Positions 31,187 to 61,578 of a stretch of 64,000 bases of DNA are shown here, piece after piece (within the stretch, counting starts at the first letter, position 1; each line of letters begins with the position of its first letter). Source of the stretch: Pelomonas sp. Root1444 (lineage in GTDB: Bacteria > Pseudomonadota > Gammaproteobacteria > Burkholderiales > Burkholderiaceae_C); contig NZ_LMFP01000003.1 in the NCBI RefSeq assembly GCF_001426885.1, positions 1 to 64,000 of the forward strand. The letters run 5' to 3'. The notes beneath the pieces were generated by a model that had not been told where the DNA came from, searched no databases, and was given only the letters and a program-made list of their open reading frames with translations. The translations under genes were made by a program, and so were the position numbers.

Positions 31187-31797
31187 TCAGGCCTGCGTGC
31201 AGCGAGCCAGCGCATCATCAAGGCGGTCGTTGCCCCAGAACATCTCGTCGCCGACGAAGAATGTGGGCGCGCCGAACACACCCCGGTTCGCTGCGGCCTC
31301 GGTTTGCTGGCGCAGCCGCAGCTTGTTCGCATCGGACACTGCCTCATCAAGGATTGCGTGGGCCGGCAGGCCGAGCTGCGTGAGCACCTCCGCCAGCACA
31401 TCACGGGAATCGATTTCGCTGTCCTGCGCGAAGTTGAGTGACATTACCCGCCGGCAATAGGCGCCCATCCAGTCCTGTTGGGCGCCCACCAGAGCGACGC
31501 GCAGAGACAGCACAGAGGCGCGAGGGAAGGTCGAGGGCCGAGTCCAAGGCAGGCGGTACTTCTCGCACTCCCGCGCCATGTCCTGCCAGACATAGTCGCC
31601 CTTGGCCTTTTGCAGCACGAAGGGCGAGTTGCTCCAGCCCAGGCTGCGAAAGATGGGGCCCAGCAGAAAGGGCCGCCAGTGGATTTTCACGCCCAGCCGG
31701 TCAGCTGCCGCCTCGATACGCATCACGCTCAGATAGCTGTAGTTGCTCGCGAACTCGAACCAGAACTCGATGACTGGGGGTTGGCGTGCTCATTCAT
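31187..31797 (-). pseudogene. 2-hydroxychromene-2-carboxylate isomerase-like gene with apparent frameshift
   Basis: The body (ORF to 31726) is a DsbA-fold HCCA isomerase: RIEAAADRLGVKIHWRPFLLGPIFRSLG, FPRASVLSLRVAL, and GVFGAPTFFVGDEMFWGNDRL. The family N-terminus FWFEFASNYSYLSV is present just upstream but has no start codon in frame. An ATG at 31797 overlaps the preceding stop (ATGA) and gives MNEHANP before losing frame at the G5 run 31776-31780 (C5 on the coding strand). One extra base there would give MNEHANPPVIEFWFEFAS, an ideal start. The gene is either frameshifted or carries a sequencing error. Confidence 0.8.
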
Positions 31798-32651
31798 TGC
31801 TCTTCGCTCTCATGGACGACCAGGCAGCGCAACTCGATGCTCTCGCGAAGCGGGGCGTCGGGCGGAATCTCGGGCAGGTCGAAGGCCGAGTGCAAGGTGA
31901 AACGGGCCACACCGCTGAGCCGGGAGTCGTACTGCTTGAACACCAGCGCCTCGTGACGATCCATCTCCGGAAAGTAGGACCAGCGATGCCGCTGTGAATG
32001 CTTCGCGAGATAGATTTCCCCGGTGCGGCGGGGGTATCGAACCTCGCTCTCGACGAGGTCCGCGGCGCTGACCGTGCGGGCATCGCAGACCGCGAGTGGC
32101 GTGTCCAGCACCGGCCCCTTGATGGAGCGCCAGATGTTGACGATGCCGTAGCGCCCGACACGGGCAGCCGCGTGCGCATCGCCAATGACCAGGGCCAATC
32201 GCCTGCGACCCGAGGCCTCGGTGTAATCGTTGTGGATGCGGCCGTTGGCGGCGGCCATGCCGGCACTTGAGCTGCGGCCAAAGCTCAAGGCGCTGCGGCC
32301 CGCTTCGCGTCGACGAATCAGGTGATCGAAGACATGAGCGTGGCGTGCCCCGGTGGCGGCGAGCGCCAGCTCGATGGCCTCCTGATAGTAGACCGCCTGG
32401 ACCGCAGCCTCATCGAGGAAGTCGACAACCGTGGTGGGCGCATCCCACAGCGCGAAGCCTTCACGTTCAAGGCAAGGTCTCTCGCTGGCCTTGCGGGCAT
32501 CCGCGATAAGCGTCTCGTGCAGGTCGTACCCGCAGTTCTCCCAGGGCGTGCCTGCCGGTGGTTCGCAGACATAGCTGTAGGGACGTTCAGCGGTGGGTTT
32601 CAGGTAGTTCAGGCCCGCCCGGATATCCGGCCTGGCAAGTTGCGACGTCAT
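31794..32651 (-). CDS. CmcJ/NvfI-family oxidoreductase
   Basis: From MTSQLARPDIRAGLNYLKPTAERPYSYV (32651) the protein has 285 residues. The pattern of a long N-terminal domain, then ANGRIHNDYTEASGRRRL with the His/Asp pair, YGIVNIWRSIKGPVLDTPLAVCDARTV, then RHRWSYFPEMDRHEALVFKQYDS and FTLHSAFDLPEIPPDAPLRESIELRCLVV, is typical of the CmcJ/NvfI family (cephamycin CmcJ and fungal NvfI relatives). These are iron/2-oxoglutarate-type hydroxylases or related enzymes. The stop overlaps the next gene by four bases. The substrate here is unknown. Confidence 0.88.
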   Translation of the reverse strand: MTSQLARPDIRAGLNYLKPTAERPYSYVCEPPAGTPWENCGYDLHETLIADARKASERPCLEREGFALWDAPTTVVDFLDEAAVQAVYYQEAIELALAATGARHAHVFDHLIRRREAGRSALSFGRSSSAGMAAANGRIHNDYTEASGRRRLALVIGDAHAAARVGRYGIVNIWRSIKGPVLDTPLAVCDARTVSAADLVESEVRYPRRTGEIYLAKHSQRHRWSYFPEMDRHEALVFKQYDSRLSGVARFTLHSAFDLPEIPPDAPLRESIELRCLVVHESEEQ

Positions 32652-32825
32652 AGGGGTTCCGGCTTTTGAACACGGAACCATTGAACCCAGTCGAGGCACC
32701 GACCTCAATCGACTTTCCGGTTCCTCCGCATGCGCAACAGGAATGTCGTGCGGCAGGGAATTCGTTTGATGACGGGCGCGGTGAACGCTTGAATGAGCCC
32801 ACCCTTTCGATGAGGCGGTGCAGGC

Positions 32826-33155
32826 ATGATGTGGATGAGAAAGCCCTGGAGCCCCACGGTCGTGCATGTCGATTTTGCGAAGTCCTACTGCATCACCGCT
32901 TCAAGAGACGTGTGGGTCATGTGCCTGGCAGGCACGGCGTGGTTGACGCGGGATGGCTGCCTCTCCGATCAGATTCTTTCGCCGGGCGATGTGACGCGCG
33001 TCTCCAAGGCCGATGCTGCCCTCGTCACCGGCATGCCGCGCTGCAGGCTTGGGATTACCGAGAAGCGCGAACACCTCGCTGACTTGCAGGGCATGACGAC
33101 GGCCGTGACGTCAGCAGCGGTTAGTCCCGTCGAGACCGCTGGTGAGATCAAGTAG
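32826..33155 (+). CDS. DUF2917 protein, 109 aa
   Basis: The core VWVMCLAGTAWLTRDGCLSDQILSPGDVTRVSKADAALVTGMPRCRLGI matches the DUF2917 pattern (V.V..G.AWVT.....D..L..G........A.V.A.P.....), a small beta-sandwich/cupin-like protein common in Burkholderiales. No function is established. It is divergent from the CmcJ gene; the LysR/MFS genes do not include it. Start at 32826 or the adjacent ATG at 32829. Confidence 0.7.
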   Translation: MMWMRKPWSPTVVHVDFAKSYCITASRDVWVMCLAGTAWLTRDGCLSDQILSPGDVTRVSKADAALVTGMPRCRLGITEKREHLADLQGMTTAVTSAAVSPVETAGEIK

Positions 33156-33677: not shown

Positions 33678-33896
33678 ATGCAAGCAGCAGACCAAACCGC
33701 CAATCCCGAGTTGCCGCTTCCGGCGTTCCTGCGCCTGCCCGTCGTTTTGCGCAGAACAGGGCTGGGCCGTTCGACGATCTACCGGATGATCGCCAACAAG
33801 GAATTCCCTGGGCAAGTTCGGATTGGGGCCAGGGCGGTGGCCTGGCGTCAGAACGACATCGACGAATGGATCGACGCCAGGCCATCGACGCATTGA
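33678..33896 (+). CDS. AlpA-family regulator (excisionase-like)
   Basis: From MQAADQTANPELPLPAFLRLPVVLRRTG (33678) the 72-residue protein is a winged helix-turn-helix of the AlpA type: FLRLPVVLRRTGLGRSTIYRMIANKEFPGQVRIGARAVAWRQNDIDEWID. AlpA proteins activate prophage or island integrase genes. There is no integrase next to it now. Its end overlaps the tail of the opposite-strand transposase-like gene. Confidence 0.9.
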   Translation: MQAADQTANPELPLPAFLRLPVVLRRTGLGRSTIYRMIANKEFPGQVRIGARAVAWRQNDIDEWIDARPSTH

Positions 33897-34987
33897 TTTC
33901 CATCCATCAGATGGGCCGCTCCCCGCTCAGGCGCGCACGCGCCAACGTCGCCTTTGGTGATCGACGCAGAGCCGCTGCGGTGAGTTCCACCCCCCATGCC
34001 ACGCAGCGAAGCGGACTCCTCAAGGATGCGGCGCAGCGGGGTGGCAATGATGATCCGATCTGCGGAACGGGATCGGCAGGCCGCCATCTGTTCGCTGAGC
34101 GTGGCCTTCGCCCGTTCGAAGTGGCGGGCTACCGACGCAGCCGAACAGAGCCCGTGAGTGACAGCGAGGCAGGCTACCAATGCCCGTCCACGCGCCGCGA
34201 GTGCGCTTGAACCAGCCCGAAGTTCAAGCGGTCCTGAAGGGTGAATCCTTGCTGCCACCCACGCCTCCAGGAGCACAAGAGCCCCGCCGATGTCGTAGCT
34301 GCCACCGGCAGCGATCAATGCCGCCGCAGCGCCCTCTACGGCCTTCGCCATTGTCGGCTGAGGGCCCACGCCGCCGGTGGCCAGCTCGAGCCCCCGGACA
34401 AGCTCCCAGGCACGCCAATCCTCGTCAGACGGGCGCTTCGCTATCCACTGCCTCAAGGCGGCGCGCGCCGCGGGCACCGGTTGTCCGAAGTGACTCAGCA
34501 TCGGTCGAGTATCAAACCCCTTCGACGGCGTCAACCCGAGCGCCACCCTCAAACCACCGTTAGGGTGGTGCGTCGGCGTCGCGCACAACTTTTGCAGCAC
34601 CGGTCGCCATGCGAGCATGCGCAGCTCGTGGCGCAGCGCTTCAACGGATTCGATGGGCAGCGCCCGGAACGGGCCGGCAAGCACCGGACTGCGAACCGGC
34701 TGCGCTTCGCGAACCCAACGCGACAGGACGTTCCCGAAAGCGCGTGCCACCCCGCCCACCGCGTCGTCCGAGCGGATCTGTGCGATCGCGTGTATCTCGG
34801 TGGGCATGAGCAGGAAGTCGATGAGCACCCTGCCCGAGCGCTGATGCGCACCGATGAGCCGGTTTCGGATTCGGCCAGCGAGTGACGGTTGCACGAGGAA
34901 GTCCCGTCCGACCGCGGCCTGCCAGCACAAGCTCCAGGTCCTGGCCTTGGGATCCGGCCCTTTTCCGGTGGTGGTCGCACTGCACAT
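33848..34987 (-). CDS. REP-associated tyrosine transposase-like protein with degenerate HUH motif
   Basis: The 379-residue protein follows the RAYT order: an N-terminal part RDFLVQPSLAGRIRNRLIGAHQRSGRVLIDFLLMPTEIHAI, a middle part SPVLAGPFRALPIESVEALRHELRMLAWRPVLQKLCATP, and a DnaA-C-like HTH (ARGRALVACLAVTHGLCSAASVARHFERAKATLSEQM). In active RAYTs the first part ends in MPNHVHxL. Here the first metal-binding His is Glu (MPTEIHAI), so catalysis is probably lost. It may be a domesticated DNA-binding relative. It lies divergent from the lasso peptide precursor; its 379 residues exceed the usual RAYT length. Confidence 0.55.
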   Translation of the reverse strand: MCSATTTGKGPDPKARTWSLCWQAAVGRDFLVQPSLAGRIRNRLIGAHQRSGRVLIDFLLMPTEIHAIAQIRSDDAVGGVARAFGNVLSRWVREAQPVRSPVLAGPFRALPIESVEALRHELRMLAWRPVLQKLCATPTHHPNGGLRVALGLTPSKGFDTRPMLSHFGQPVPAARAALRQWIAKRPSDEDWRAWELVRGLELATGGVGPQPTMAKAVEGAAAALIAAGGSYDIGGALVLLEAWVAARIHPSGPLELRAGSSALAARGRALVACLAVTHGLCSAASVARHFERAKATLSEQMAACRSRSADRIIIATPLRRILEESASLRGMGGGTHRSGSASITKGDVGACAPERGAAHLMDGNQCVDGLASIHSSMSF

Positions 34988-35299
34988 GAAGCAATGACGA
35001 TTGCGCCCTGGATTCCCTCATCCCCAATTCATCAATATCCGCTCGAACGTTCGGTTCGGGAAAACAACCCCAGAGAGCCTCCGCCGGCCACGCAGCCGAA
35101 CAAGTAGACCTTCGTTGTCCCAGGCCGTCCCAGGCCGGTCCGCCTGGCCACGCGCAGGTGAAACCCATCCGAAGGTCGACCGAACGCCGAAAGGGATCGC
35201 CTCCATCCCATCGACCGACCGGGCGCCGCGGACTACCTTGAGGCCGCCCGAAGTCCAGAAGGCCAAGGGCATTCGCAACCTCAACTGAAGGAGTCCATC
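34988..35299. other. Leader region of the lasso peptide operon
   Basis: This 312-bp region separates the divergent transposase-like gene from the precursor gene. It must hold the promoter of the lasso operon. I see a small hairpin (CCAGGC, six-base loop, GCCTGG at 35130-35147) and the ribosome site AAGGAG at 35288-35293, seven bases from the ATG. No clear -35/-10 pair stands out. Confidence 0.5.
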
Positions 35300-35434
35300 A
35301 TGGACAAGACTTTCCAACCCGAACTGGACCTGCAAGTCGTCGAACTGGGCGACGCCAAGGAGCTGACCATGGGCATCCCCAACCAGGTCAACTCGGAAGA
35401 CAACCCGCAGGTCCCGCACAAGCTGCAGGACTGA
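35300..35434 (+). CDS. Lasso peptide precursor (rubrivinodin-like)
   Basis: This 44-residue peptide is too short for ordinary ORF calls. The leader is residues 1-24, ending LTM; Thr at position -2 is the conserved leader residue of proteobacterial lasso precursors. The predicted core has 20 residues, beginning GIPNQVNSE and ending DNPQVPHKLQD. Gly1 would be joined to the side chain of Glu9, a nine-membered ring, leaving an 11-residue tail. From memory, the published Rubrivivax rubrivinodin core also has Pro3 and the block NSEDNP followed by a second Pro. It is followed by a hairpin and then by the B, C and D genes. The ribosome site AAGGAG is ideal. Confidence 0.92.
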   Translation: MDKTFQPELDLQVVELGDAKELTMGIPNQVNSEDNPQVPHKLQD

Positions 35435-35443
35435 GCGAGCTCC

Positions 35444-35470
35444 GCGCGCGCCACCCACTCCGGCGCGCGC
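35444..35470 (+). terminator. Attenuator-like hairpin between precursor and processing genes
   Basis: A perfect 9-bp GC-only stem (35444-35452 with 35462-35470), a 9-base loop and a short TTT tail, starting ten bases after the precursor stop. Hairpins at this place are known in proteobacterial lasso operons and should raise precursor mRNA over the enzyme genes. Confidence 0.8.
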
Positions 35471-35668
35471 TTTGATGCTTCCCCGCAAGGACGTACGGCG
35501 CACCGCAGCTCAACGAACGCGCCCACACCGCACCGCAATCGCCCTGCGTCCACGTCCTTGCATTCGATTCCGGGCGCGTCCGGCACTGATCAGTCGACCT
35601 GTATCGGGACGCGCCAAAAGCGCTGGCGAGTACTTGCCCGCAACAAGCCAGAACGCTGAGGAGTCTTG

Positions 35669-36388
35669 ATGCAACCTGCCCCCTCGAGTCCGACTCTGAG
35701 ATTGGCCTGCCATGTCCGGGCCTGCAACGCCGACGGCCAGACCATCCTGCTGGACTTGCGGCGCAACCGGTATCTCGGCATCGGAAGGCAGGCTTCGACG
35801 GCGTTGGCCGCCCTCGTGCAGGGCTGGCCGACCAGCCTGCCGCCCAACGATGCATCGCCGGCCCCAGTCGGCGAGTTCACCCGGCAGCTCATCTCTCAAG
35901 GGCTGCTCACCGACAAAGCATTCGGTCTGCCGCCCGCTCCCGCTGCGGAGGAAGCGACGGCGTCGCTCGACCTCGTGGACGCAAATCCAAATGCCGATAT
36001 TGGCGCGAGGCACGTCGCCCATTTCCTCAAGAGCGCGGCTCTCACGGCCTGGTGGCTCCGCAGCCGCACCCTGTACGACATCGCCCTGAAGGTCGCCGCA
36101 CGCCGGGAGCGGCTCACGGCGCCGACGCCGCCGTCGCTCGAAGCCATCAGGGTGGCCACCGCCGTCTACGAGACGCTGCGGCCACTGGTCTTCACGGCAC
36201 GCGAGAGATGCCTGCACGACTCGCTGACCCTCGTCTGCTTCCTCGCCACGCAAGACCTGCCCTCGCGATGGGTGGTCGGGGTCAAGACCTGCCCTTTCGG
36301 CGCGCACGCATGGGTCCAAAGCGGCCGCACGGTCCTGAACGATCAACACGAGTACGTTCGCGGCTTCCGCCCCATCCTCGTCGTGTAG
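35669..36388 (+). CDS. Lasso peptide B protein (fused leader-binding B1 and protease B2)
   Basis: This 239-residue protein starts at ATG 35669 (GAGGAG ribosome site). Residues about 8-90 are the PqqD-like leader-binding domain (LRLACHVRACNADGQTILLDLRRNRYLGIGRQASTALAALVQGW). Residues about 105-239 are the transglutaminase-like B2 peptidase with catalytic C181 (ERCLHDSLTLVCFLA), H213 (FGAHAWVQ) and D225 (NDQHEY). It binds the leader and cleaves it from the core. B1 and B2 are one protein here, as in most proteobacteria. It precedes the cyclase by nine bases. Confidence 0.95.
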   Translation: MQPAPSSPTLRLACHVRACNADGQTILLDLRRNRYLGIGRQASTALAALVQGWPTSLPPNDASPAPVGEFTRQLISQGLLTDKAFGLPPAPAAEEATASLDLVDANPNADIGARHVAHFLKSAALTAWWLRSRTLYDIALKVAARRERLTAPTPPSLEAIRVATAVYETLRPLVFTARERCLHDSLTLVCFLATQDLPSRWVVGVKTCPFGAHAWVQSGRTVLNDQHEYVRGFRPILVV

Positions 36389-36397
36389 CCGATCGCC

Positions 36398-38188
36398 ATG
36401 TTCCGCTACATCGCCATTTCATGGGACGAGTCGCAGCCGGTCTGCACCGCGGCGGCGCGCCAGCTCAGCATGAGCTGGCAGTCACGCCCAGCTTGGGACG
36501 GCGCCCTCGTTCGCCCGGGGCTGCACGTTTTCACGACCGGCTCCAGAACCGGCATCAACGAGGCGCACCCGCTGCCCGGGGGCGCGGGTGTCGTGCTGGG
36601 CAAGCTGTTTCGCCGCCGCGAGCTTGACGCGCCTCCCGCGCGTCACGTGCGCCTCAACGACCGGGAGGCTGCCGGCATCGTCGACAGCGGTGCCAGCAGC
36701 CTCGTCACCGATTTCTGGGGACGCTATGTCGCCTTCGTGCAGGCGACGTCCGGCGCCTTCGTGCTTCGCGATCCCAGTGGCACGCTGCCCTGCTTCCGAA
36801 CTCGACATGAAGGGGTCGAAATCGTCTTCTCCTGGCTCGAGGACGCTCTGGAGATGCTGGGCGACGCGAAACCCTTCGCTGTGAACTGGGACGCGTTGAC
36901 CGCCCAGTTGCGCCTCGGCGTCCTCAGCGGGCGGGAAACCGCACTGGACGGCGTGTCCCAGGTGCTCCCGGGCGAGCTGGTCGAATTGCACGCCGGTCGC
37001 GCAGCCGTCTTGTGGAGCGCAATCGATGTCGCACGCTCACCGGAGCCGTGCCATGCCGAGGAAGCCACTTGTCGGCTCCGGGCAACCGTGCAGGCCTGCA
37101 CCCGCGCCTGGGCGGCCTGCTACGACACCTTGCTGCTGCGGCTGTCCGGCGGCGTCGACTCCTCCATCGTCCTGAGCTGCCTCGGCCCAGGCAGCACGCT
37201 CGCCGACGTGATCGGCGTCAACTACCACTCCCCCGGTGCCGACAGCGACGAGCGGACGTATGCACGACTGGCCGCCGCACGTGCCGGTCGGGACCTGCTG
37301 GAGCGCGAGCGCGACGCGGGCTTCCGTATCGAGCAAGTCCTTCAGGCGGCGCGCATGCCGGCACCGATCCCCTACGTCGGCTGGATGAATGCCGCCACGG
37401 ACGCCAGACTGGCCAGCGCGTACGCGGCGCCGGCGATGTTCACCGGCGCCGGCGGTGATCCGCTTTTCTATGAATACCCGCGCTGGTGGCCGGCTGCCGA
37501 CTACCTGCATGACAGGGGCATCGATGCCGGTTTCCCGGCGGCGGCAATGGACGCCGCCCGTCTCGGCAGACTGTCGGTCTGGCGCACCGCTGCGCTGGCG
37601 CTCAGGGAGCGCGTCCGGCCGGACCTTGCCGCCAGGACCCCGGGGAGCTTTGAAGGCCTGCTCGCACCAGCCCTCCAGCGGCAAAGGATCGAAGCGCGCC
37701 GCTTCACCCATCCCGCACTTTGCGAAGCGGACGCCCTGCCGCTGGGCAAGTACATGCAGGCCATCGCGCTGATGTACCCCCTCGGGTACTACGACCCGTT
37801 CGAGCAGTCCTGCGCGCCGGAACTGGTCAATCCGCTCTTCTCGCAGCCGCTGGTGGAGCTGTGCCTTCGCCTGCCAACCTATGTGCTGACGCAGGGCGGC
37901 CGCGGTCGCGCCCTGGCAAGGCGGGCGTTCGCGGCCGATCTCCCGCCCCAGATCACCAACCGGCGCTCCAAAGGCGGGATGGAGGAGCACATCAAGGCGG
38001 TGCTGGACGCCAACATCGAGCGGGTGCGCTGCCTGCTGCTCGACGGCGAGCTCAGTCGCCGCGCCATGATCGAGCGCGCCCGGCTCGAGGAGCTGCTGTC
38101 CGGCAGGCCCACGGCGCTTGCAGGCGCCGTCAGCCAGATCCATGCTTTGGCGGCGGTGGAGGCATGGTTGACGCGCTGGACCCGATAG
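36398..38188 (+). CDS. Lasso peptide cyclase (asparagine synthetase-like C protein)
   Basis: This 596-residue enzyme activates the Glu9 side chain with ATP and closes the ring onto Gly1. An N-terminal glutaminase-like domain (MFRYIAISWDE...) lacks the catalytic Cys2 of true asparagine synthetases, as expected for lasso cyclases. The synthetase domain has the pyrophosphatase loop SGGVDS at residues 250-255 and a late block NPLFSQPLVELCLRLPTYVL, then a Lys-rich ITNRRSKGGMEEHIKAVL. The length is normal. It follows the B gene by nine bases and precedes the ABC exporter by 22. Confidence 0.96.
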   Translation: MFRYIAISWDESQPVCTAAARQLSMSWQSRPAWDGALVRPGLHVFTTGSRTGINEAHPLPGGAGVVLGKLFRRRELDAPPARHVRLNDREAAGIVDSGASSLVTDFWGRYVAFVQATSGAFVLRDPSGTLPCFRTRHEGVEIVFSWLEDALEMLGDAKPFAVNWDALTAQLRLGVLSGRETALDGVSQVLPGELVELHAGRAAVLWSAIDVARSPEPCHAEEATCRLRATVQACTRAWAACYDTLLLRLSGGVDSSIVLSCLGPGSTLADVIGVNYHSPGADSDERTYARLAAARAGRDLLERERDAGFRIEQVLQAARMPAPIPYVGWMNAATDARLASAYAAPAMFTGAGGDPLFYEYPRWWPAADYLHDRGIDAGFPAAAMDAARLGRLSVWRTAALALRERVRPDLAARTPGSFEGLLAPALQRQRIEARRFTHPALCEADALPLGKYMQAIALMYPLGYYDPFEQSCAPELVNPLFSQPLVELCLRLPTYVLTQGGRGRALARRAFAADLPPQITNRRSKGGMEEHIKAVLDANIERVRCLLLDGELSRRAMIERARLEELLSGRPTALAGAVSQIHALAAVEAWLTRWTR

Positions 38189-38210
38189 CAGGCCGCACCC
38201 TGTAGACGGC

Positions 38211-40043
38211 ATGTCGACGTTTCGCGAGCTGGTGGCCGCCCTCCATGTGCTGACCGACGGTGCCGGCCGAACCGTCGCCTGGCGCGTGTGCGCGGCGAAC
38301 CTGCTGGCGATTTCGACCGGCGCGCTGGCGGGCTTGGCGCCTCTGGCGCTGAAGGAGATGGTCGACGCCGCAGCGAGGGCCGCGACGAAGCCGCGCCCGG
38401 TCGCGTCGCTGGCCATGTTCGGCGTTGTGTACATCGGCTGCCTCGGCCTGGGCCGGCTTCTGACGGAGATTCGGCCCTGGCTGATGAGCGGCGCCGAGCA
38501 GCACCTCTACGCCGGGCTGCGCCAGCGCTACTTCAAGCACCTGCTGGATCTGCCGCTGGCATTCCACCTGAACAAACGCACTGGTGCGGTGATCCACGCA
38601 TTGCAGCAAGGCATCTCCGGCTACCAGATCATCATGTTCCACGCCGTCAACAGCATCGTCCCGGTGCTGGTCGAAGCGGCCACCGTGATCGTCGTGCTGA
38701 TGTCGCTCGGACAGCCTGCGCTGACGGCGACATTCGCAGCGACCGCCCTCGCCTATTTCGCGGTCATGGCCTGGGGCACCTCGGGCATGGCTGCAACGGC
38801 GCAGGCCGTCGCGGACGCGGGCAGCGATGTCCACGCGAGGCTCACCGACGGTCTCATCAACTTCGAGCCGATCAAGTGCTTCGGCGCGGAGCGACGAACG
38901 CTCCATGGTTTCGAGCTGTCGTGCTTCGCACTTGTGCGCTGCTGGTCGGAGTTGCAGCGTCGGCGCCTCCGACTCGGGCTTTCGATCGCCGCCGTGTTTG
39001 TGCTGTCGATGGCCGCGTCACTTGCGCTGGCGACACAGGGTGCGGCGAACGGCACGCTGACCGTTGGCGGCTTCGTGCTGGCCAACGTCTACATGCTTCA
39101 GGTCATTCGTCCCCTTGAGGCTTTGAGCAGCGCCGTGCGCGACGTGTTCCAGGGCCTGGCGTTCGTCCGTCCTCTGCTGGGCGTGTTCGACACGGCCCCG
39201 GAGACATCACGCGAGGGCGAGCGCGCGACCCTGATCGGCTCTGGCGCCGCGCCGCCGCCCGGCGACCCCGTGCTGCGCCTGGGGCGCCGGCCACCGCCTC
39301 ATGTCAGCATCCGCGGCGTGCGCCTGGCCTTCGACGCGGGCACTCCCGTACTGAGCAATTTCAGCCTGGAAGTGCCGCCGGGTCGCTCGACGGCCATCGT
39401 GGGCGCCAGCGGCTGCGGCAAGTCATCACTGGTGAGGCTGCTGCTGCGGCTGCGCGAGCCGGATGCCGGCAGCATCCTGCTGGACGGTGTCGCCATCGAC
39501 ACCTTGCCGATCGACGCCCTCCGCTCCTTGATCGCGGTCGTGCCGCAGGACGTCGTTCTCTTCAACACGACGCTCGCCGCGAACATCGGGCTCGGCAAGG
39601 ACGACGCGACGCCAGGGGAAATCGAGCGCGCCGCACGCCTTGCAGGGCTGCACGACTTCGTTGCAACCCTTCCCCACGGCTACGGCACGCCGATCGGCGA
39701 ACGCGGTCTGAAGCTATCGGGCGGCGAACGCCAGCGCATCGCCATTGCGCGGGCGATCCTGAGGGATCCGGATATCTTCGTGTTCGACGAGGCAACCTCG
39801 ATGCTGGACGGCCCGACCGAGCGGGCGATCCTGCGCAACCTGCGAGAGATATCTGTGGGTCGCACCACCATCACCATCGCCCACCGACTGTCCGCCATCC
39901 AGGATGCCGACCTCATCGCGGTGGTCGGCAGTGGCATGGTCATCGAGCAAGGTGACCACGAGACGCTGCTGGCCAGGGACGGCGTCTACGCCGCCATGTG
40001 GCGGGCGCAGAAGGCGGGCATTCGGCCCGGCGAGCGCGGATGA
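38211..40043 (+). CDS. Lasso peptide ABC exporter (D protein)
   Basis: This 610-residue half transporter would work as a homodimer in the inner membrane to export the lasso peptide and give self-immunity. Six membrane helices lie in the first 320 residues. The ATPase domain has Walker A GASGCGKSS (398-406), the signature LSGGE (502-506), Walker B IFVFDEAT (D526, E527) and an H-loop in TITIAHRLSAI. There is no peptidase domain. It is the last plus-strand gene of the production operon and converges on the isopeptidase gene with 13 bases between. Confidence 0.95.
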   Translation: MSTFRELVAALHVLTDGAGRTVAWRVCAANLLAISTGALAGLAPLALKEMVDAAARAATKPRPVASLAMFGVVYIGCLGLGRLLTEIRPWLMSGAEQHLYAGLRQRYFKHLLDLPLAFHLNKRTGAVIHALQQGISGYQIIMFHAVNSIVPVLVEAATVIVVLMSLGQPALTATFAATALAYFAVMAWGTSGMAATAQAVADAGSDVHARLTDGLINFEPIKCFGAERRTLHGFELSCFALVRCWSELQRRRLRLGLSIAAVFVLSMAASLALATQGAANGTLTVGGFVLANVYMLQVIRPLEALSSAVRDVFQGLAFVRPLLGVFDTAPETSREGERATLIGSGAAPPPGDPVLRLGRRPPPHVSIRGVRLAFDAGTPVLSNFSLEVPPGRSTAIVGASGCGKSSLVRLLLRLREPDAGSILLDGVAIDTLPIDALRSLIAVVPQDVVLFNTTLAANIGLGKDDATPGEIERAARLAGLHDFVATLPHGYGTPIGERGLKLSGGERQRIAIARAILRDPDIFVFDEATSMLDGPTERAILRNLREISVGRTTITIAHRLSAIQDADLIAVVGSGMVIEQGDHETLLARDGVYAAMWRAQKAGIRPGERG

Positions 40044-40056
40044 CCATGTCGCGGAC

Positions 40057-42450
40057 CTACCGGAATTCAGCGGCGCGGGCACATGCCGGCCGGGCGTCAT
40101 CCGCCTGCTTCAGCACCACCATCTGGTCCCACCGCTCGTACTGCTGCCTCAGGCTCGCCTCGGTCTCCGTCGGGATGAGGACCTCCGTCCTCTTCTCGCC
40201 CTTGAGCCAGAAGCGATACCAATCCACATTCCCTTGCAGCGAGATCATGCGCTCGCTGGGTCGGGACAGCGCATGCGCGCCTTCGGGGATCATGACCATC
40301 TCGACCGGTTTGTACTGCCGGCGCAGCAGCGCATACACATCCCAGTTGTTGTGCACCTCGTTGCCGTAGGTCTCGATCCGCATCGCCGCCCGGATGCAGT
40401 CGGTGTGAAGCGACGGATCGTTGGCCACCCAGCGCATGCGAGATGCGCCGTACGGGCCACCCTCATTCGCACGCTCCTTGTGCACCAGGGTCCCATCGAC
40501 GACCGAGTAGGTGATCGCAAGGGAGAACAGCGTATTCGCGTCACCGTCGAGCAGCGTGGCGGCACGGATGGGCACGTCGGAGAAAGTCACCAGGTTCAGT
40601 ACCGACTCACCGGTGGCGCTCCAGCCCATGATGCCCACCTTTTCCCGGTCGACCAGGCCGTCCGCGACCAGCGCCTCGATGGCTGCGCGCACGCCGTCGG
40701 CAAAAGCGATCCGACGGCCCCGCTCATCGGTCGGACCGCCAGCCGATGGACCCAAGGGAAGGGCCAGCACGAGGATGCTCTCGCGCAGGAAGGCTCGTCC
40801 CGCAAAGCCGCTCGTGAAGCCGTCATAGACGTTCGAGCCGTCGCGGTAGAAGCGCGTGGGCGAGAAGCCGTAGGCCTGGATCACCAGAGGACGCCGAACT
40901 CGCGGATTGAAATTCGTCGGAACCATCAAGCCGCCCTTCCACGGCCTGCCCTTGGCATCCGTCCACCCGTACTCACGCATGCTGCCCCACTGTTCGATCG
41001 AGTACTGCGGGTTGAGCGTCGTGAGGCGAACCACCGCCCCCGCCGGGCCCGCGGCGACGATGTCCGGCGGCTGGTTCAGCGCCTGCTCGACCCGCAGGCG
41101 CCATGCGCCAGCGGACGCGGCCTGGCCCGCCTCTGCCTTGCCTTCCTCGACGATCTCAAGCCAGGCGCCATCCGCGCTGCGCACGAAGGTCCGGCGCCGC
41201 TCCCCGTCCTTCACGACAAAGGCGCCAGACTTGCCAGCGATGCGATTGACCGCCTTCAGGCGCGTCTCAAGCACGGCGAGATCCTTCCACCGGCCGGATT
41301 CAGGCCAGTACTCGATGATGTGCGAGGCCGAATCAGCGCCTGCGTCACCTTCCCGCACCGGCAGGAACGTGCCGGCGATGACGACAGACCGCCCGCCGTC
41401 CTGCCACAGGCGGTCGGAGCGCCGCTGGTTATCCTGCATGGAGTCATCGGGCGCGTCGACCACCGCCCGCTCTCGACCGTCAACCAGGTCATAGGCCACC
41501 AGCCGTCGTGTCACGTAGCTCGAAGGTCGCGAGAAGTACCCGAGCGGATCCATGCGCAGCGACGGCCCGTATTTCGCCATCATGTCGGCGACGTAGGGGT
41601 ACTGCTTCGCCCAGGCGAGCTGCCGCTGCGGCTCGTACCGTGGCAGCAGCAGCCACCGGCCGTCCGGAGAAATGCTGGCGCTGGGCAAGCCCAGGCTGGA
41701 CTCGGCGAACGGCTCGCCGAGCGCTCGCGCCCCAGTCCCCGAGGCGGTCTCCGCCACGAAGTACTGGTAGCGCCGCTGCTGCTTGCGCAGGTCGTTCTGG
41801 CCGAAGTGGACGCTCCAGAACGAGTTCGTCCCGACCACGACGCTGCGCGCACCGGGCGGCATGGCGGGATTGGGCACCGGCGCGACATAGACGACGCGCC
41901 GCAGGTCATCCGTGAGGTCGAAGGCGGCCACCCCGAAAGCCGCGAACGTCAGTTGCGTGACCTGGCGGGTCGGCAGGTCGAGCCGGTAGGCCTGATAGGG
42001 CTCATCGTTCATCCGTGCGCGGAACACGAGAACCCGGTCGCCATGCCAACGAACGTCCTGCACTGCCGGGTAGGCGTCGTTTTCGTCCTTTTGCGCCTTG
42101 ACGGCCAGCAGCCGCACAGGCGCCGCGGGCCGCGACGCGGCGAGGTTGCCGGGACTCACGTCGAGCAGCAGGATCTCGAACCAGTTGGTGTCGGTCGCCA
42201 CGTCGGCCCGGCGCGTGACGATGAACGCACGTTCGCCATCCGGCGAGACCTGGGTCCGCAGCGTTTCGTCATCGTGTCCGACCGGCTGGATGATCCGGGT
42301 GAACTCGATGACGTCCCTGACGGTCGGTCCGACGGGGGCGTCCGCGAGCACGCTGGACCCCCAAGCCAGCAGAAGAAGGGTCAAAGCCAGTTGCCGCAGG
42401 ACGGGCACGAGGCCGGTCCGGGCGAGAAATGTGGATGGTTCAGGCAGCAT
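40057..42450 (-). CDS. Exported S9-family lasso isopeptide hydrolase (IsoP type)
   Basis: The start MLPEPSTFLARTGLVPVLRQ (42450) gives 797 residues with a Sec signal ending near SSVLADA. A beta-propeller precedes the alpha/beta-hydrolase domain. The nucleophile elbow is GIMGWSATGES, the catalytic His is in PEGAHALSRPSERM. Prolyl-oligopeptidase relatives in lasso clusters (AtxE-type) cut the isopeptide bond of their own peptide, linearising it. The gene sits with a TonB receptor and sigma/FecR pair, the standard uptake half of such clusters. It should act in the periplasm. Confidence 0.9.
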   Translation of the reverse strand: MLPEPSTFLARTGLVPVLRQLALTLLLLAWGSSVLADAPVGPTVRDVIEFTRIIQPVGHDDETLRTQVSPDGERAFIVTRRADVATDTNWFEILLLDVSPGNLAASRPAAPVRLLAVKAQKDENDAYPAVQDVRWHGDRVLVFRARMNDEPYQAYRLDLPTRQVTQLTFAAFGVAAFDLTDDLRRVVYVAPVPNPAMPPGARSVVVGTNSFWSVHFGQNDLRKQQRRYQYFVAETASGTGARALGEPFAESSLGLPSASISPDGRWLLLPRYEPQRQLAWAKQYPYVADMMAKYGPSLRMDPLGYFSRPSSYVTRRLVAYDLVDGRERAVVDAPDDSMQDNQRRSDRLWQDGGRSVVIAGTFLPVREGDAGADSASHIIEYWPESGRWKDLAVLETRLKAVNRIAGKSGAFVVKDGERRRTFVRSADGAWLEIVEEGKAEAGQAASAGAWRLRVEQALNQPPDIVAAGPAGAVVRLTTLNPQYSIEQWGSMREYGWTDAKGRPWKGGLMVPTNFNPRVRRPLVIQAYGFSPTRFYRDGSNVYDGFTSGFAGRAFLRESILVLALPLGPSAGGPTDERGRRIAFADGVRAAIEALVADGLVDREKVGIMGWSATGESVLNLVTFSDVPIRAATLLDGDANTLFSLAITYSVVDGTLVHKERANEGGPYGASRMRWVANDPSLHTDCIRAAMRIETYGNEVHNNWDVYALLRRQYKPVEMVMIPEGAHALSRPSERMISLQGNVDWYRFWLKGEKRTEVLIPTETEASLRQQYERWDQMVVLKQADDARPACARAAEFR

Positions 42451-42548
42451 GGTGCAGTCCCGGGAGCGAGGCCCGAGCCCGAAGATCAGTCTGGGAAAGC
42501 GCGCCGTAGGAGACGGCCGCGGCAAGCGTTGGTGGCTGCGAGGAAGCG

Positions 42549-45500
42549 CTACCAGCTCATGGACAGGCGCATGTTCACGTAGCGGCCACGCCAGTCGCCC
42601 TGCGTGACGTCGTAGTAGGGTGAGGTCCCGACGAACTCGGGCAGTCGATCACCCGCATTGGCGACGGCCAACGCCAGGCGGGCCTCCTTCATCCCCGGCA
42701 GGCGCAGCCCCAGGCGCTTGAGGTCCAGCGTGGCCGCGACGTCGTAGACCCAGAAGTCGCCGAGCGGCCGCTCGCTTGGCGACATGTCCCGGTAGCCCCC
42801 CAGGTAGCGGCCGGTCAGGCCCGCGGTCCAGCTGCCGTGGTCCACACCGGCGAAGAGCCGGCCCTTCCACTTGGGCGACCAATAGTCGATGGCACGGCGA
42901 GCCAGCCGGTGCTCCACCGCAGCGCCGGGCGAGACGGCGACGTCGTACCGGGTCGTGCGGGTCGCGCTGGCGGCCAGCGTCCACTTGGCGCCTGCGGCCT
43001 TCCAGGCATGCGCGATCTCCATGTCGACGCCTGCGGTGTTGACCCCACCAAAGTTCACCTCCGAGTACAGCACCCGGGTGACCTCGCCGGGGGCGCCGCC
43101 CGAGGCCGGCGAGCGCGTGATGAAACCAGGAAACAGCGCTTCGTTGTCCAGCACCACCTGGGGCCACAACAGCGAAATGAGGCCATCGATGTTCACGCGC
43201 CAGGCGGTCATGGCCAGCCGGGTGCCCGCCGCAGACTCGGGCTCCCACACCGCGCCCAATGAATACGCCCGTCCCTTCTCCGGCCGAAGGTCTGCATTGG
43301 CAGCACGCCGCACCTCACCGCCGGCGATGGGCGCGTTCGCCCGGGCCGGGTCGACCAGTCCGAAGTCGTCGGTCGTGTAGCTCTCCTCGTTGACCTGGGT
43401 CTGCAGCAGCGTGGGCGGCTTGAACGACGTCGCCGCCGAGGCGCGCAGCAGCGTCGTCCGGGTAGGCCGCAGCTCAAGGCCGGCCTGGTAGGTGTTCGCG
43501 CTGCCGAAGTCGCTGTAGCGATCGCGCCGCCCCGCCACTGTGACCGCAGCCGTCTCCCAGCTCGGGCCGTTCGCTGCACGGGCCCGCCAAAGCGGGACGC
43601 GGATCTCGCCGTACACCGCGCCATTGGAGCGGCTGCCGCCAATGTCAAAGCTGCCCGGCGTCACCGTCAGGAAGCGGTCACGCGCGGCCTCGGCGCCAGC
43701 GATCAGATCGACGCTGCCGGCAGGCAGGATCAACGCAGAGCCCCGCACGAACAATCCGACCTGGTCCTTGCGACCATGGTTCTCGCGAATCGTGTCCGAC
43801 CAGATCGACCTCAACACCTCTTCACTGGCCGCACGGCCCGTCGTGAACGGATTGAGCGCCGCAGCCGTGCCCGTGGCGGCCAGTGCCGCGGTGCGCGCGG
43901 CGACGTTCGCGGTCGTGTTCGCCACACGGCGCTCGCCGTCGTCACGCGTGGTCGATATGGACGCCTCGATGTCCCACCCGGCAGCCAGCTCACCACGCGC
44001 GCCCACAAGAGCCCGCACGAAGTTGGTATCGCGGGAGAAGGTCTCTGCGCCGTTCTCCAGCCCCAGCCGCGCCGTCACGCGGACCGGCACGCCGAATGGG
44101 TTGTGCGGGTTGGTGGATGGGACAAGCACGTTGTTCAGCACGATGCCACCCTGCTCGGCCCGCAGACGGTCCCTTGCATACGTCATTTCACCGAACAGCG
44201 ACCAAGCCTCGCCCAAGCGCCGTTCGCCGGCCAAATGCAGCGCCAGATTCTGGCTGCCATGGACCAGCGCCATGCCATGGCCGTTGACCATCGGGTTGCA
44301 CAGGTTGGCCTGGCCGGCGTTCCCGGCGAAGCTGGCCACCGTCAGCGGTTCTCCCGTTGCGACCACGGGGATGGCCGCAAAGCGCGAGGTCAGACCTGGC
44401 AGGTTCGCGTTGGACACGTTGGTGACCGTCCCCGGCGTGCACGAGCGCGTGCGGGCGTCCACGCCGCCGAAGCGCCGATAGTCGGCGTCCTGGAAGAAGC
44501 CCCGCTCGGCCATCGTCAGCGGCGTCGCCCTGCTGTACGAACCCAGCAGCACGTAGGAACCGGCTTCATCGCGACCGCCCGTGCCGAGCGAGATGCCGCC
44601 ATCGCCGGTGTCCTTGCCCGAGGCCACGCGTGCATCCAAGGCAAGCCCGTCGATGGACTTTTTCAGGATGACGTTGACCACACCGGCCAGGGCGTCGCCG
44701 CCGTAGACGGCGGACGATCCGACCGGCACGATCTCGATGCGCTCGACCGCAGCCATCGGGATCAGATTCAGGTTGAAGAAGTTGCCCGAGGAGGAACCGA
44801 CGGCCTGCACGCGGCGGCCGTTAATCAGGACCAGCGTCGATCCGAGCGGCAGGCCGCGCAACTGCACCGAGCCCTGCCCGGTGGTGGGTCCCGAACCGCC
44901 CTCCCCCGGACTCACCGACGCTTCGTTGAGGCTGCTGATGAACCGCTCAAGGGTCGGCTGCCCGCTGCGGTCGATGTCAGCGCGCGAGTAGACATTGACC
45001 GGCGCCGGGCCGTCCGCATCGATGCGCTTCAGGCGCGAACCCGTGACCTCGACCCGCGTGAGCGATGTCGGGGTCTGCGCATCCTCGGAAGAAGCAGCGG
45101 CACCATTCGACGCCGAAGACGGGGGCTCCGGAGCAACCGACGTGGCGTTGGAGGATGCCGCCGCCAGCGAGAAGGATCCCGGCGATACGCCAGCGGCCGG
45201 CCCGGATGCCGGCGTGGCTGTCGACGCCGCCCTGACCCTGACCACAATGGAACCGTCGGGCATCAGGACCGGTTCAAGTCCTGAATCGTCGAGCGCCCGC
45301 GAGATCGCCTCGGCGGCTGTCAGCTGCCCCGCGACGGCCCTGGACCGGCGCCCGGCAACCGCGACCGGATCGAACAGCACCGACACACCGGTCTGTCTTG
45401 CGATCGACCGCAGCGAGTCGGCCAGCGCCTGCGACGGCTGGTCGATGCGGTACCTTGCCATGCTGGTCGGTTCCGCCGCGCCGGCCAGTCCGCAACTCAA

Positions 45501-45575
45501 GAAGAGCGCGACGAACGCGCCTCCCGTTAAACGGCTCGCGCCCATACCCCTGTCACTGAAGACTTTGCGTTTCAT
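42549..45575 (-). CDS. TonB-dependent receptor with STN signalling domain (FecA type)
   Basis: This 1008-residue outer-membrane receptor has a signal peptide (GAFVALFLSCGLAGAAEPT), an STN domain (YRIDQPSQALADSLRSIARQTGVSVLFDPVAVAGRRSRAV ... GSIVVRV) at about 41-114, a low-complexity linker, a plug (RVEVTGSRLKRIDADGPAPVNVYSRADIDRSGQPTLERFISSLNEA), and a 22-strand barrel ending in a terminal aromatic (RLSMSW). The STN domain contacts FecR. It probably imports the lasso peptide and reports its presence to the sigma factor. It lies 98 bases upstream of the isopeptidase, same strand. Confidence 0.94.
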   Translation of the reverse strand: MKRKVFSDRGMGASRLTGGAFVALFLSCGLAGAAEPTSMARYRIDQPSQALADSLRSIARQTGVSVLFDPVAVAGRRSRAVAGQLTAAEAISRALDDSGLEPVLMPDGSIVVRVRAASTATPASGPAAGVSPGSFSLAAASSNATSVAPEPPSSASNGAAASSEDAQTPTSLTRVEVTGSRLKRIDADGPAPVNVYSRADIDRSGQPTLERFISSLNEASVSPGEGGSGPTTGQGSVQLRGLPLGSTLVLINGRRVQAVGSSSGNFFNLNLIPMAAVERIEIVPVGSSAVYGGDALAGVVNVILKKSIDGLALDARVASGKDTGDGGISLGTGGRDEAGSYVLLGSYSRATPLTMAERGFFQDADYRRFGGVDARTRSCTPGTVTNVSNANLPGLTSRFAAIPVVATGEPLTVASFAGNAGQANLCNPMVNGHGMALVHGSQNLALHLAGERRLGEAWSLFGEMTYARDRLRAEQGGIVLNNVLVPSTNPHNPFGVPVRVTARLGLENGAETFSRDTNFVRALVGARGELAAGWDIEASISTTRDDGERRVANTTANVAARTAALAATGTAAALNPFTTGRAASEEVLRSIWSDTIRENHGRKDQVGLFVRGSALILPAGSVDLIAGAEAARDRFLTVTPGSFDIGGSRSNGAVYGEIRVPLWRARAANGPSWETAAVTVAGRRDRYSDFGSANTYQAGLELRPTRTTLLRASAATSFKPPTLLQTQVNEESYTTDDFGLVDPARANAPIAGGEVRRAANADLRPEKGRAYSLGAVWEPESAAGTRLAMTAWRVNIDGLISLLWPQVVLDNEALFPGFITRSPASGGAPGEVTRVLYSEVNFGGVNTAGVDMEIAHAWKAAGAKWTLAASATRTTRYDVAVSPGAAVEHRLARRAIDYWSPKWKGRLFAGVDHGSWTAGLTGRYLGGYRDMSPSERPLGDFWVYDVAATLDLKRLGLRLPGMKEARLALAVANAGDRLPEFVGTSPYYDVTQGDWRGRYVNMRLSMSW

Positions 45576-45649: not shown

Positions 45650-46711
45650 CTACTGTGGAGGAAGCAGCTCCAAACGTCCGTCGCGCTCCAGCGCCCGCAG
45701 ACCATGGAGCGCGGCGACGGCGCGAGCGAAACCGTTGCTGTCGCCCGTTCGGTACAAGCCACTGACGCGCAACCTCGACCCGTACCCATCCCCTGACAGC
45801 ACGATGGGAACCCGGCTGTAGCGGTTCATCTCGGCGACGGCTTCTACGAGCGGCGCATCGTCGAAGACCACCTCGCTGCGCTTCCAGGCCAACATCTGGT
45901 CGATGCGCGGCCGGTCCATCTTCTGGGTGGCCGGTCCGCCAGACCTGCTGGCCTTGATCAGGCGCATCCGCTCGCCGACTTGCATCAGGACTTCCTTGGC
46001 CGGCGCGATGCCTTGGCGCCGGTCCGCCGCCGCAGGACGGACAGCCACCCGCCCCTCGATCAGCGTGACGGCCAGTCCATCGTCGACAGGCCCGCCGCCA
46101 GCGAGCCTCACGTTGAACACCGTGCCCAAGGCCACAACCTCGCTGTCTGCCGCGCGCACGACAAACGGTCGGCTCGGATCCTTCGCGACCTCGAAGAGCG
46201 CTTCTCCGGACTGGATCCGGACCAGGCGCTGTGCCCGATCCGCCTGCACGCGCACCCGCGTGTCCGTGTTCAGGGACATGCGCGTTCCATCGTCAAGCAC
46301 CACCAACCGCTGTTCCCCCACCCCTGTGGCGTACGTGTCGGTCTCGCGTCCGAGCTGAAATGCCAGACCCGCTCCGACGGCGAACACCGCGGCAAGTGCT
46401 GCGAGCACCCAGCCCCCCCCCCAGCGACGCCCGCCACGCTTGCCGTCGGCCTGCGCCGTCCCGGACGACACGCTCGCATAGGCATCGGCAAGCTTCAACT
46501 GAGGTACTGCCTGCCAGACCTCCGTGCAGCGCTCGAACGCCAGGCGGTGCACCGCGGAACGGGACTGCCAGTCAAGGCACTCGCGCTCCATGCGCGGCGA
46601 CCGGTCGGGCCCGTGCAGGCGGGCAATCCAGACGGCCGCCTCGGCGGCAATCTCTGGCGTCACGTCGATCGGCGGATCGTCGCGCGAAGACCCGGCGCCG
46701 GAGGTGTTCAT
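45650..46711 (-). CDS. FecR-family anti-sigma regulator
   Basis: The ATG at 46711 overlaps the sigma stop by four bases and gives 353 residues. The N-terminal cytoplasmic domain (DUF4880-like: EIAAEAAVWIARLHGPDRSPRMERECLDWQSRSAVHRLAFERCTEVW) would bind the sigma factor. A membrane segment follows (GGWVLAALAAVFAVGAGLAFQLG). The FecR periplasmic domain (YATGVGEQRLVVLDDGTRMSLNTDTRV) and a C-terminal STN-like part (MLAWKRSEVVFDDAPLVEAVAEMNRYSRVPIVLSG) would contact the receptor. Confidence 0.95.
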   Translation of the reverse strand: MNTSGAGSSRDDPPIDVTPEIAAEAAVWIARLHGPDRSPRMERECLDWQSRSAVHRLAFERCTEVWQAVPQLKLADAYASVSSGTAQADGKRGGRRWGGGWVLAALAAVFAVGAGLAFQLGRETDTYATGVGEQRLVVLDDGTRMSLNTDTRVRVQADRAQRLVRIQSGEALFEVAKDPSRPFVVRAADSEVVALGTVFNVRLAGGGPVDDGLAVTLIEGRVAVRPAAADRRQGIAPAKEVLMQVGERMRLIKASRSGGPATQKMDRPRIDQMLAWKRSEVVFDDAPLVEAVAEMNRYSRVPIVLSGDGYGSRLRVSGLYRTGDSNGFARAVAALHGLRALERDGRLELLPPQ

Positions 46712-47193
46712 GGCCACCAGCCTTCCATCGCACGCGTGACCAGCAACGCTGCCTTCGCGATGTGCTTCTCCACGGCGCTCACACTCAATCGCTGCTCCTG
46801 CGCGATCTCGCCATAGCTCAGGCCCTCCACCCGGTGCGCCAGGAAGATCCTGCGCGTCTTCGGGTCGAGCTCCGCCAGGCTTTCGCTCAACCGCGCGATC
46901 CTCTCCCGCGCCAGCAGGATCGTCTCCGCGGTCGGCATCGCGTCGGCGATCTCGATCTCGTCGAGCATCACCTGTTCACCGCGATTGCGGCTGTTGCGGT
47001 AGTCATCGATCGACAGGTTCAATGCGGCGCGCATGAGAAAGGCCTCTGGCTCGTCAACCGATTGCCGGCGCTCATAGCAGGCAAGCCTGAGCCATGCTTC
47101 CTGCACCAGATCATCAGCATCATGCCGGGTGCGGCCGCGGCGCATGAGCGCAGCCCTGACACGCGAGATGACGGCCTCCCAATTCCTGACCAT
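46708..47193 (-). CDS. FecI-type ECF sigma factor
   Basis: This 161-residue ECF sigma has sigma region 2 (DADDLVQEAWLRLACYER, FLMRAALNLSIDDYRNSRNR) and region 4 (LSESLAELDPKTRRIFLAHRVEGLSYGEIAQEQRLSVSAVEKHIAKAALLVTRAMEGWWP). FecI-family proteins typically have HRVEGLSY.EIA. It should be held by FecR and released when the receptor binds its ligand. It heads the operon sigma-FecR-receptor-isopeptidase. A paralogue with strong similarity lies at 53207-53686. Confidence 0.95.
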   Translation of the reverse strand: MVRNWEAVISRVRAALMRRGRTRHDADDLVQEAWLRLACYERRQSVDEPEAFLMRAALNLSIDDYRNSRNRGEQVMLDEIEIADAMPTAETILLARERIARLSESLAELDPKTRRIFLAHRVEGLSYGEIAQEQRLSVSAVEKHIAKAALLVTRAMEGWWP

Positions 47194-53204: not shown

Positions 53205-53206
53205 GG

Positions 53207-53686
53207 CTACCAGCCTTCCATCCAGGTGGTCAGCTGCAGCGTGGCCTTGGCGATGTGCTTCTCCACCGTGCTGGTGCTCAACCCATGCCGCCTGGCAATC
53301 GCCTGGTAGGTGAGGCCCTCCACCCGGTGGGACAGGAAGATTTCGCGCGTCTTCTCGTTCAAACGGCTCAGGCACACGCTCAGGCGCGCCATGCGCTCCC
53401 GCGCAAGCAGCACGTCCTCGGCCGCGGGCGTGGCGTCAATGAGAACCACATCCTCGACGAGCAGCTCCTCGCCGCGACTCACGCGCGATCGATGCGCATC
53501 GATCGACAGATTGAGCGCCGCCCTCATCAGGAAAGCTTCTGGCTGCTCGACCGGCTGCTCCCGCTCGTAGCAGGCCAGCCGCACCCAAGCCTCCTGCACG
53601 AAGTCCTCGGCATCCTGCTCGGACCGGCCACGCCTCATCAGCGCCGCCCGCACGCGGGAGAAAACCGGCAGCCAGTCCTTGATCAC
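53207..53686 (-). CDS. FecI-type ECF sigma factor, second copy
   Basis: This 159-residue protein is similar along its length to the sigma factor at 46708-47193: FVQEAWVRLACYEREQPVEQPEAFLMRAALNLSIDAHRSRVSRGEEL, then KTREIFLSHRVEGLTYQAIARRHGLSTSTVEKHIAKATLQLTTWMEGW. It starts at a GTG that overlaps the stop of the gene upstream (GTGA), an unusual coupling. With its FecR it forms a duplicated pair lacking a receptor in this window. Confidence 0.93.
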   Translation of the reverse strand: MIKDWLPVFSRVRAALMRRGRSEQDAEDFVQEAWVRLACYEREQPVEQPEAFLMRAALNLSIDAHRSRVSRGEELLVEDVVLIDATPAAEDVLLARERMARLSVCLSRLNEKTREIFLSHRVEGLTYQAIARRHGLSTSTVEKHIAKATLQLTTWMEGW

Positions 53687-59714: not shown

Positions 59715-59727
59715 ATGAGGTGCAGCG

Positions 59728-60819: not shown

Positions 60820-60845
60820 CCGGCTGATTAATCAGGAGTGAAATC

Positions 60846-61541: not shown

Positions 61542-61578
61542 CGCGCAAGCCCAAGCGCTTCCATCGACGAGGTACCTC

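Follow-up and report, generated by a model that had tools for sequence, protein, structure and literature searches.

A predicted rubrivinodin-like lasso peptide cluster of Pelomonas sp. Root1444 and its transposase-derived neighbour, a candidate regulator

Gene content of the lasso peptide locus

The stretch of DNA analysed here (64,000 nucleotides, hereafter the window) opens contig C3 (NZ_LMFP01000003.1, 1.44 Mb) in the 5.9-Mb genome of Pelomonas sp. Root1444, and it carries a lasso peptide locus that we regard, with high confidence, as a cluster combining an export module with an isopeptidase/uptake module. The original prediction placed a rubrivinodin-like lasso peptide at 35300..40043, and this span does enclose the precursor gene A and genes B, C and D, all four named correctly; the locus itself runs further, upstream to 33848 and, with its minus-strand part, to 47193, so that an isopeptidase, a TonB-dependent receptor, a FecR, a FecI and a divergent upstream gene of 379 codons (u379) had been overlooked. 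The genes, their catalytic residues, the conservation of these and a shared intergenic motif are established directly from the DNA.

The precursor A (35300..35434, plus strand) has 44 amino acids, comprising the leader MDKTFQPELDLQVVELGDAKELTM and the core GIPNQVNSEDNPQVPHKLQD. The open reading frame (ORF) and its match to PF19399 (DUF5974; 53.1 bits vs. a cut-off of 38.5, E 2.9e-14) bear out the predicted 44-residue precursor with Thr at position -2, Gly1 and Glu9. It is not a chance ORF, because it lies 234 bp before B, which is followed by C and D on the same strand, and because the order A-B-C, often with D, is found again in relatives. Both the only precursor match and the only lasso B gene above the PF13471 cut-off in this genome are those of the window.

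Gene B (35669..36388, plus strand, from an ATG at 35669) encodes a cysteine protease, predicted to be fused to a leader-binding part (NF033537, 63.3 bits vs. a cut-off of 33), whose triad C181, H213 and D225 is invariant in 17/17 aligned proteins (L071, with a stop in the stretch, was omitted). Gene C (36398..38188, plus strand) encodes an asparagine synthetase-like lasso cyclase above the cut-off of PF00733 (Asn_synthase, E 1.5e-21), with SGGVDSS at residues 250-256 and an SGG.DS motif invariant in 22 aligned rows. Gene D (38211..40043, plus strand) is an ABC exporter with membrane and ATPase domains. The expectation of intact B, C and D genes behind the precursor thus held, all three being full-length, on one strand and of the expected families.

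Facing D is one divergent unit of four minus-strand genes, in an order shared with many relatives: an AtxE2-like lasso isopeptidase of the S9 family (40057..42525), a TonB-dependent receptor with plug and barrel domains above cut-off (42549..45575), a FecR-like anti-sigma factor (45650..46717) and a FecI-like extracytoplasmic function (ECF) sigma factor (46708..47193), the last two assigned by family matches. The isopeptidase exceeds the PF00326 cut-off, and its triad S616, D709 and H731 (numbered from 42465) is invariant in 21/21 rows; its first in-frame ATG is at 42450, where the N-terminus looks signal-peptide-like by eye. Against solved structures, two AtxE2 entries were its sole matches at E up to 0.001 (5txc, E 1.4e-8). 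With D, isopeptidase, receptor and FecI/FecR, the hybrid-type gene set of the window is complete. A second FecI/FecR pair occurs at 52161-53686 (minus strand), about 5 kb from the lasso pair, and the ORF list shows no receptor gene beside it.

Several family searches weigh against these assignments. C stays below the cut-offs of all NCBIfam lasso cyclase models, an RRE (PqqD-like) domain in B is matched below threshold (E 0.05, residues 16-53), and the receptor falls just short of the cut-off for an N-terminal STN domain (27.2 vs. 28.4 bits). The isopeptidase reaches 126 of the 400 bits set as the curated cut-off of NF033523, and it is therefore probably a divergent AtxE2-type relative.

Further features lie on the plus strand around the precursor gene. 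A putative sigma-70-like promoter for A occupies 35211..35239 (TCGACC and TACCTT separated by 17 bp, the -35 element assigned by eye), and a G+C-rich hairpin just 3' of A (35444..35470) might serve as an attenuator before B. The fold of 35425-35490 has -28.4 kcal/mol and a z score of -1.78, and 8/200 shuffles fold as well or better, which is weak evidence.

Comparison with relatives and known systems

The best 80 of 99 relatives were used for comparison. An isopeptidase gene was found at 23/36 Burkholderiales loci, 18 of which also have D and five of which do not, so the hybrid of exporter and isopeptidase is ordinary in this clade. Of the 13 loci without an isopeptidase, ten are truncated, the contig ending 0 to 5 kb past the final gene detected; L082 has neither D nor isopeptidase and continues directly with the TonB receptor, and for two (L091, L094) D is present and no isopeptidase was found in the 8 kb behind it.

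Rubrivinodin was reportedly described by Hegemann in 2013 from Rubrivivax gelatinosus, and substitution of the ribosome site is reported for it in PMC7549694 and PMC5067487. A precursor with the core GAPSLINSEDNPAFPQRV, which we take to be rubrivinodin, was located among the 81 genomes of the genus to which R. benzoatilyticus JA2 belongs, in a one-contig genome (loci L180/L182). This locus and the window share a DUF5974 precursor and B, C, isopeptidase, TonB, FecR, FecI and u379 neighbours. The two cores are not identical: they agree at 9/18 positions (Gly1, Pro3, the block NSEDNP and Pro15) and differ at the other nine. The predicted retention of Pro3 and NSEDNP and the longer core of the window (by two residues) were thus confirmed against the core presumed to be that of rubrivinodin. 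The estimate that about half of the remaining positions differ was too low, the actual figure being 9/11, with only Gly1 and Pro15 in common outside Pro3 and NSEDNP.

A D exporter is present in the window and was not detected by tblastn at L182, and for this reason the whole-locus architecture of the window is better described as rubrinodin-like. According to the review PMC9266682, isopeptidase clusters lack an ABC transporter with the exception of that of rubrinodin (attributed to Xiu 2022), which has both, together with a TonB receptor and FecI/FecR; the architecture of the window is therefore already published. Toxin-antitoxin genes are also mentioned for the rubrinodin cluster in PMC10926693. 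The astexin/AtxE2-type clusters of alphaproteobacteria, as presented in PMC9266682, resemble the window in their isopeptidase, TonB receptor and sigma/anti-sigma pair, but are without D and have a GntR-like regulator before the precursor, the place that u379 occupies in the window.

A tree built from 37 C proteins places the window with 12 others (support 100/100) and beside L073 (97/96), in a group labelled mostly Paucibacter, Methylibium, Rhizobacter, Rubrivivax, Pelomonas and Roseateles; the eight included loci from its own genus stand apart from it and cluster with one another (97/97). The C protein of the window is 56-67% identical to those of its tree group vs. 46-52% to those of the genus loci. 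A lasso cyclase with E below 1e-150 is found in 9/20 genomes of the genus, including this one (13 at E 1e-5, the extra four being weak). The tree placement therefore indicates that the window cluster and those of the other members of the genus are of different lineages, owing either to transfer or to differential loss.

The divergent gene u379 and its relation to transposases

The gene u379 (33848..34987, minus strand, start at 34987) is transcribed away from the precursor. Its predicted structure is confident (pLDDT 84, from 27 rows), and the best Foldseek match in the PDB is 4er8, a REP-associated tyrosine transposase (RAYT) bound to a REP hairpin (E 2.1e-5), with a TM score of 0.68 relative to the target and 0.32 relative to the query, the latter low because only the first part matches; further structure matches are IS200-type transposases. 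The model NF047646 (REP-associated tyrosine transposase) is matched at E up to 1 by 27/27 relatives of u379 (best 3e-10); L047 and L079, which contain a stop, and L084, which duplicates the L047 locus, were kept out of their alignment. Other searches yielded little: Pfam has zero matches for the window protein, Y1_Tnp is matched in just 2/19 rows, and a profile of u379 gave a single chance-level match against solved structures.

The catalytic residues expected of such an enzyme are gone. Throughout the 27/27 rows, Glu at residue 64 replaces the His that opens the HUH motif, the second His is retained, and no Tyr occurs within residues 119-130, where the catalytic one is expected; the mean column identity is 54%. 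HUH and the catalytic Tyr are both kept in L169 and L170, which are RAYTs encoded elsewhere in this genome, and a third RAYT-like protein (L171), below cut-off, has H-Y-D at the HUH place. The C-terminal part of u379 is helical in the model and, by eye, reads like a helix-turn-helix (HTH) region of the kind found as extensions in TnpAREP subclass 2.1. In its N-terminal Y1-transposase fold and putative HTH-like C-terminal extension, u379 resembles TnpAREP/RAYT subclass 2.1, as this is described in PMC6006769, and it differs in lacking the first HUH His and the catalytic Tyr and in being tied to one type of biosynthetic locus.

A u379 gene is present at 30/33 Burkholderiales lasso loci whose upstream side is covered (L064, L070 and L091, where the sequence ends too early upstream, were not counted) and at 0/44 non-Burkholderiales loci, some of these being on short contigs. 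A profile search of u379 found it in 13/250 genomes of the family, and these are the same 13 that gave strong precursor matches in a scan of 299 genomes, the two samples being at least partly shared. That scan matched 18 genomes in all; the precursor matches of the remaining five (G165, G266, G021, G215 and G060; E 7.2e-4 to 0.07) are below cut-off and were taken as chance on score alone. Within the literature searched, with most subscription journals outside its coverage, no link between lasso clusters and RAYTs was found.

Two further genes lie near u379: one for a DUF2917-like protein (32826-33155, plus strand; E 2.5e-5, below cut-off) and one for a 357-aa protein with zero Pfam matches (31794-32867, minus strand).

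A conserved intergenic motif and the candidate regulator

The motif CCGAACG was spotted on reading 18 intergenic regions, and the pattern CCGAAC(G/A) was then scanned at -150 to -95 of the precursor start. It occurs there in 17/18 discovery loci vs. 0.3 expected from dinucleotide shuffles, and in 17/19 held-out loci vs. 0.4 expected, a figure that overstates independence because three held-out loci (L086, L087, L088) are near-identical and two (L076, L078) are similar to discovery loci. In the window, CCGAACG lies at 35180..35186 (plus strand, -120 from the precursor start), a second direct copy, CCGAACA, at 35096..35102 (plus strand, -204), and an inverted CCGAACG on the u379 side at 35048..35054 (minus strand). 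The direct sites are 84 bp apart; in 28 loci this spacing is 82-96 bp and bimodal (82-87 in 14, 91-96 in 14). The presumed rubrivinodin locus, which came to light afterwards, also has the -120 site and three motif copies in all, with its second direct copy at 61 bp. A helical-phase test on these spacings ignores the kinship of the loci and is not relied on.

A loose TACCTT-like -10 pattern, counted in 25/37 loci without a chance estimate, lies 54-56 bp after the first site where both occur, and with this spacing the site would fall about 65 bp before the transcription start, a usual activator position. The motif is no commoner than expected by chance before B (4/36 vs. 4.5 expected), FecR (1/20 vs. 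1.7) and the isopeptidase (0/8 vs. 0.9), and these regions act as a control. Upstream of the TonB receptor it is found at 10/13 loci vs. 1.8 expected, an enrichment that we have set aside since the site of the window (45746) is inside the FecR ORF; the sites of the other loci lie at similar distances. An ECF promoter reading of the second site, GAAC-N11-CGTT, was dropped because its spacing is too short.

These observations make u379 a candidate for a dedicated cluster regulator acting at CCGAAC(G/A), a role for which and against which we see about equal reason. A fuller proposal is that a dead RAYT was domesticated as the dedicated regulator of a lasso clade that includes the rubrivinodin locus, working through a conserved set of putative operators, with a pair of direct sites ahead of the precursor, spaced by 82-96 bp in most loci, and an inverted site ahead of u379; we advance it tentatively and rate it slightly less likely than not.

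A competing explanation, which we find plausible and rather less probable, holds that u379 is a passenger RAYT-like gene and that the CCGAAC sites serve a different regulator, e.g., FecI/FecR. The transposase origin of the u379 family fits it, as does the enrichment of the motif before fecI (11/17 loci vs. 2.2 expected). One genome (G143) has a u379 copy (L166, G143:C5, 8928-9869, minus strand) with no lasso gene found over roughly 8 kb in each direction, and a lasso cluster of its own without u379, and three loci that possess u379 (L075, L076, L089) are without the -120 site. The last point also counts directly against regulation by u379, and so do the score of the window protein against NF047646 (E 0.24) and the failure of a genome-wide search for a regulon, a candidate use of the two-site motif that was rejected after it gave eight matches in this genome and eight in a reversed control. 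On the other side, loss of the catalytic His and Tyr in every aligned row, with the rest conserved, is unexpected for a mobile gene. The three loci without an adjacent u379 (L082, L090, L093) are all in genomes that retain a copy elsewhere, in two cases (G223 and G053) beside a second lasso locus; L090 and L093 have kept both direct sites and L082 one, as a diffusible regulator predicts. Furthermore, the inverted motif is found 48-76 bp before u379 in 21/32 loci, as would be the case in self-regulation.

Proposed pathway and predicted product

The steps after precursor transcription (maturation, export, signalling and linearisation) are proposed by homology. The precursor would be transcribed from the promoter about 65 bp upstream, with u379, as a protein of transposase origin in which the catalytic residues are missing, adding a layer of control, probably via the CCGAAC(G/A) sites between both genes. 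B would cleave after Met-1, with Thr at -2 as the recognition residue, and C would activate Glu9 and join it to Gly1, forming a ring of nine residues through which the tail is threaded and giving a product with a computed monoisotopic mass of 2210.07 Da (core minus water). D would export this lasso peptide; the TonB receptor, through its STN-like domain, would bind it and signal via FecR to FecI, thus raising expression of receptor and isopeptidase, the latter of which would linearise the re-imported peptide.

The comparison of cores covered 37 precursors, with 35 distinct cores among them, all taken from Burkholderiales. Gly1 is present in 35/35 and Glu9 in 32/35 distinct cores, the remaining three having Asp9 with Glu8, and positions 2 to 8 are variable; the constancy of Glu9 next to this variation supports the predicted Gly1-Glu9 ring closure, which the comparison favours. 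For these counts it matters that one set of precursors was selected for Thr at -2 together with an acidic residue anywhere in core positions 6-10 (not at 9 specifically), and the other for Thr at -2 with no acid required; as a consequence the Thr count is uninformative and Glu9 is slightly favoured. The nearest cores are GTPSQERSEDNQQFPHKIVT (L073, from a Rubrivivax metagenome-assembled genome), identical at 11/20 positions, and GIPAPVYTEDNPQVPAKF (L071), at 12/18. With 20 residues in 13/35 distinct cores, the longer tail of the window core is nothing special. The exact core is absent among the precursors compared here, and text searches with pieces of it returned no matching paper. Together, the DUF5974 precursor, the B triad, the SGG.DS motif of C and the prevalence of Glu9 uphold the reading of a new rubrivinodin-like lasso peptide, which the cluster very probably makes.

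That the cluster is silent or decayed, with intact genes but no lasso peptide or an unthreaded core, we consider improbable. Such loss does happen in this cluster family: a member of the same genus carries two lasso loci, of which L048 (G156:C54, 8993-9274) has C cut to residues 1-94 with D directly behind it, apparently a decayed cluster in which precursor, isopeptidase and receptor are retained. The genes of the window, by contrast, are full-length with their catalytic residues, and the cores vary among loci, yet keep Gly1 and an acid at position 9. Closure of the ring elsewhere, by another cleavage site or with the directly following Asp10 as acceptor, is very improbable, as the rings of known lasso peptides have 7 to 9 residues and Glu9 is the sole acid of the window core in that range.

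As a peptide, the predicted product is new but ordinary for a clade that is already known; less expected at this locus is the neighbour u379, with its transposase ancestry and the conserved sites beside it. There is no agreed function for isopeptidase-type clusters, and the presence of exporter, receptor, sigma factor and isopeptidase together makes the question of an exported and re-imported signal or carrier addressable in one strain. If u379 is a regulator, it would offer a handle for switching on possibly silent clusters of this clade, as well as an example of a transposase domain that lost its chemistry and turned into a pathway-specific DNA-binding protein.

Additional observations

In Roseateles cellulosilyticus (L089), two tandem precursors with different cores (5384-5500 and 5574-5690) share one B-C-D set. 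A contig labelled Nostoc sp. CHAB 5836 (L075, NZ_JAIVFV010000131.1) carries a lasso precursor nearly identical to that of Paucibacter L076 and is most likely a contaminating betaproteobacterial contig. Finally, the window contains conjugation (type IV secretion) genes at 56743-63251, starting about 9.5 kb past the lasso locus and identified by family matches as VirB4-like (56743-59310), VirB6/TrbL (59728-60819), VirB8 (61522-62352) and CagX/VirB9-like (62349-63251).

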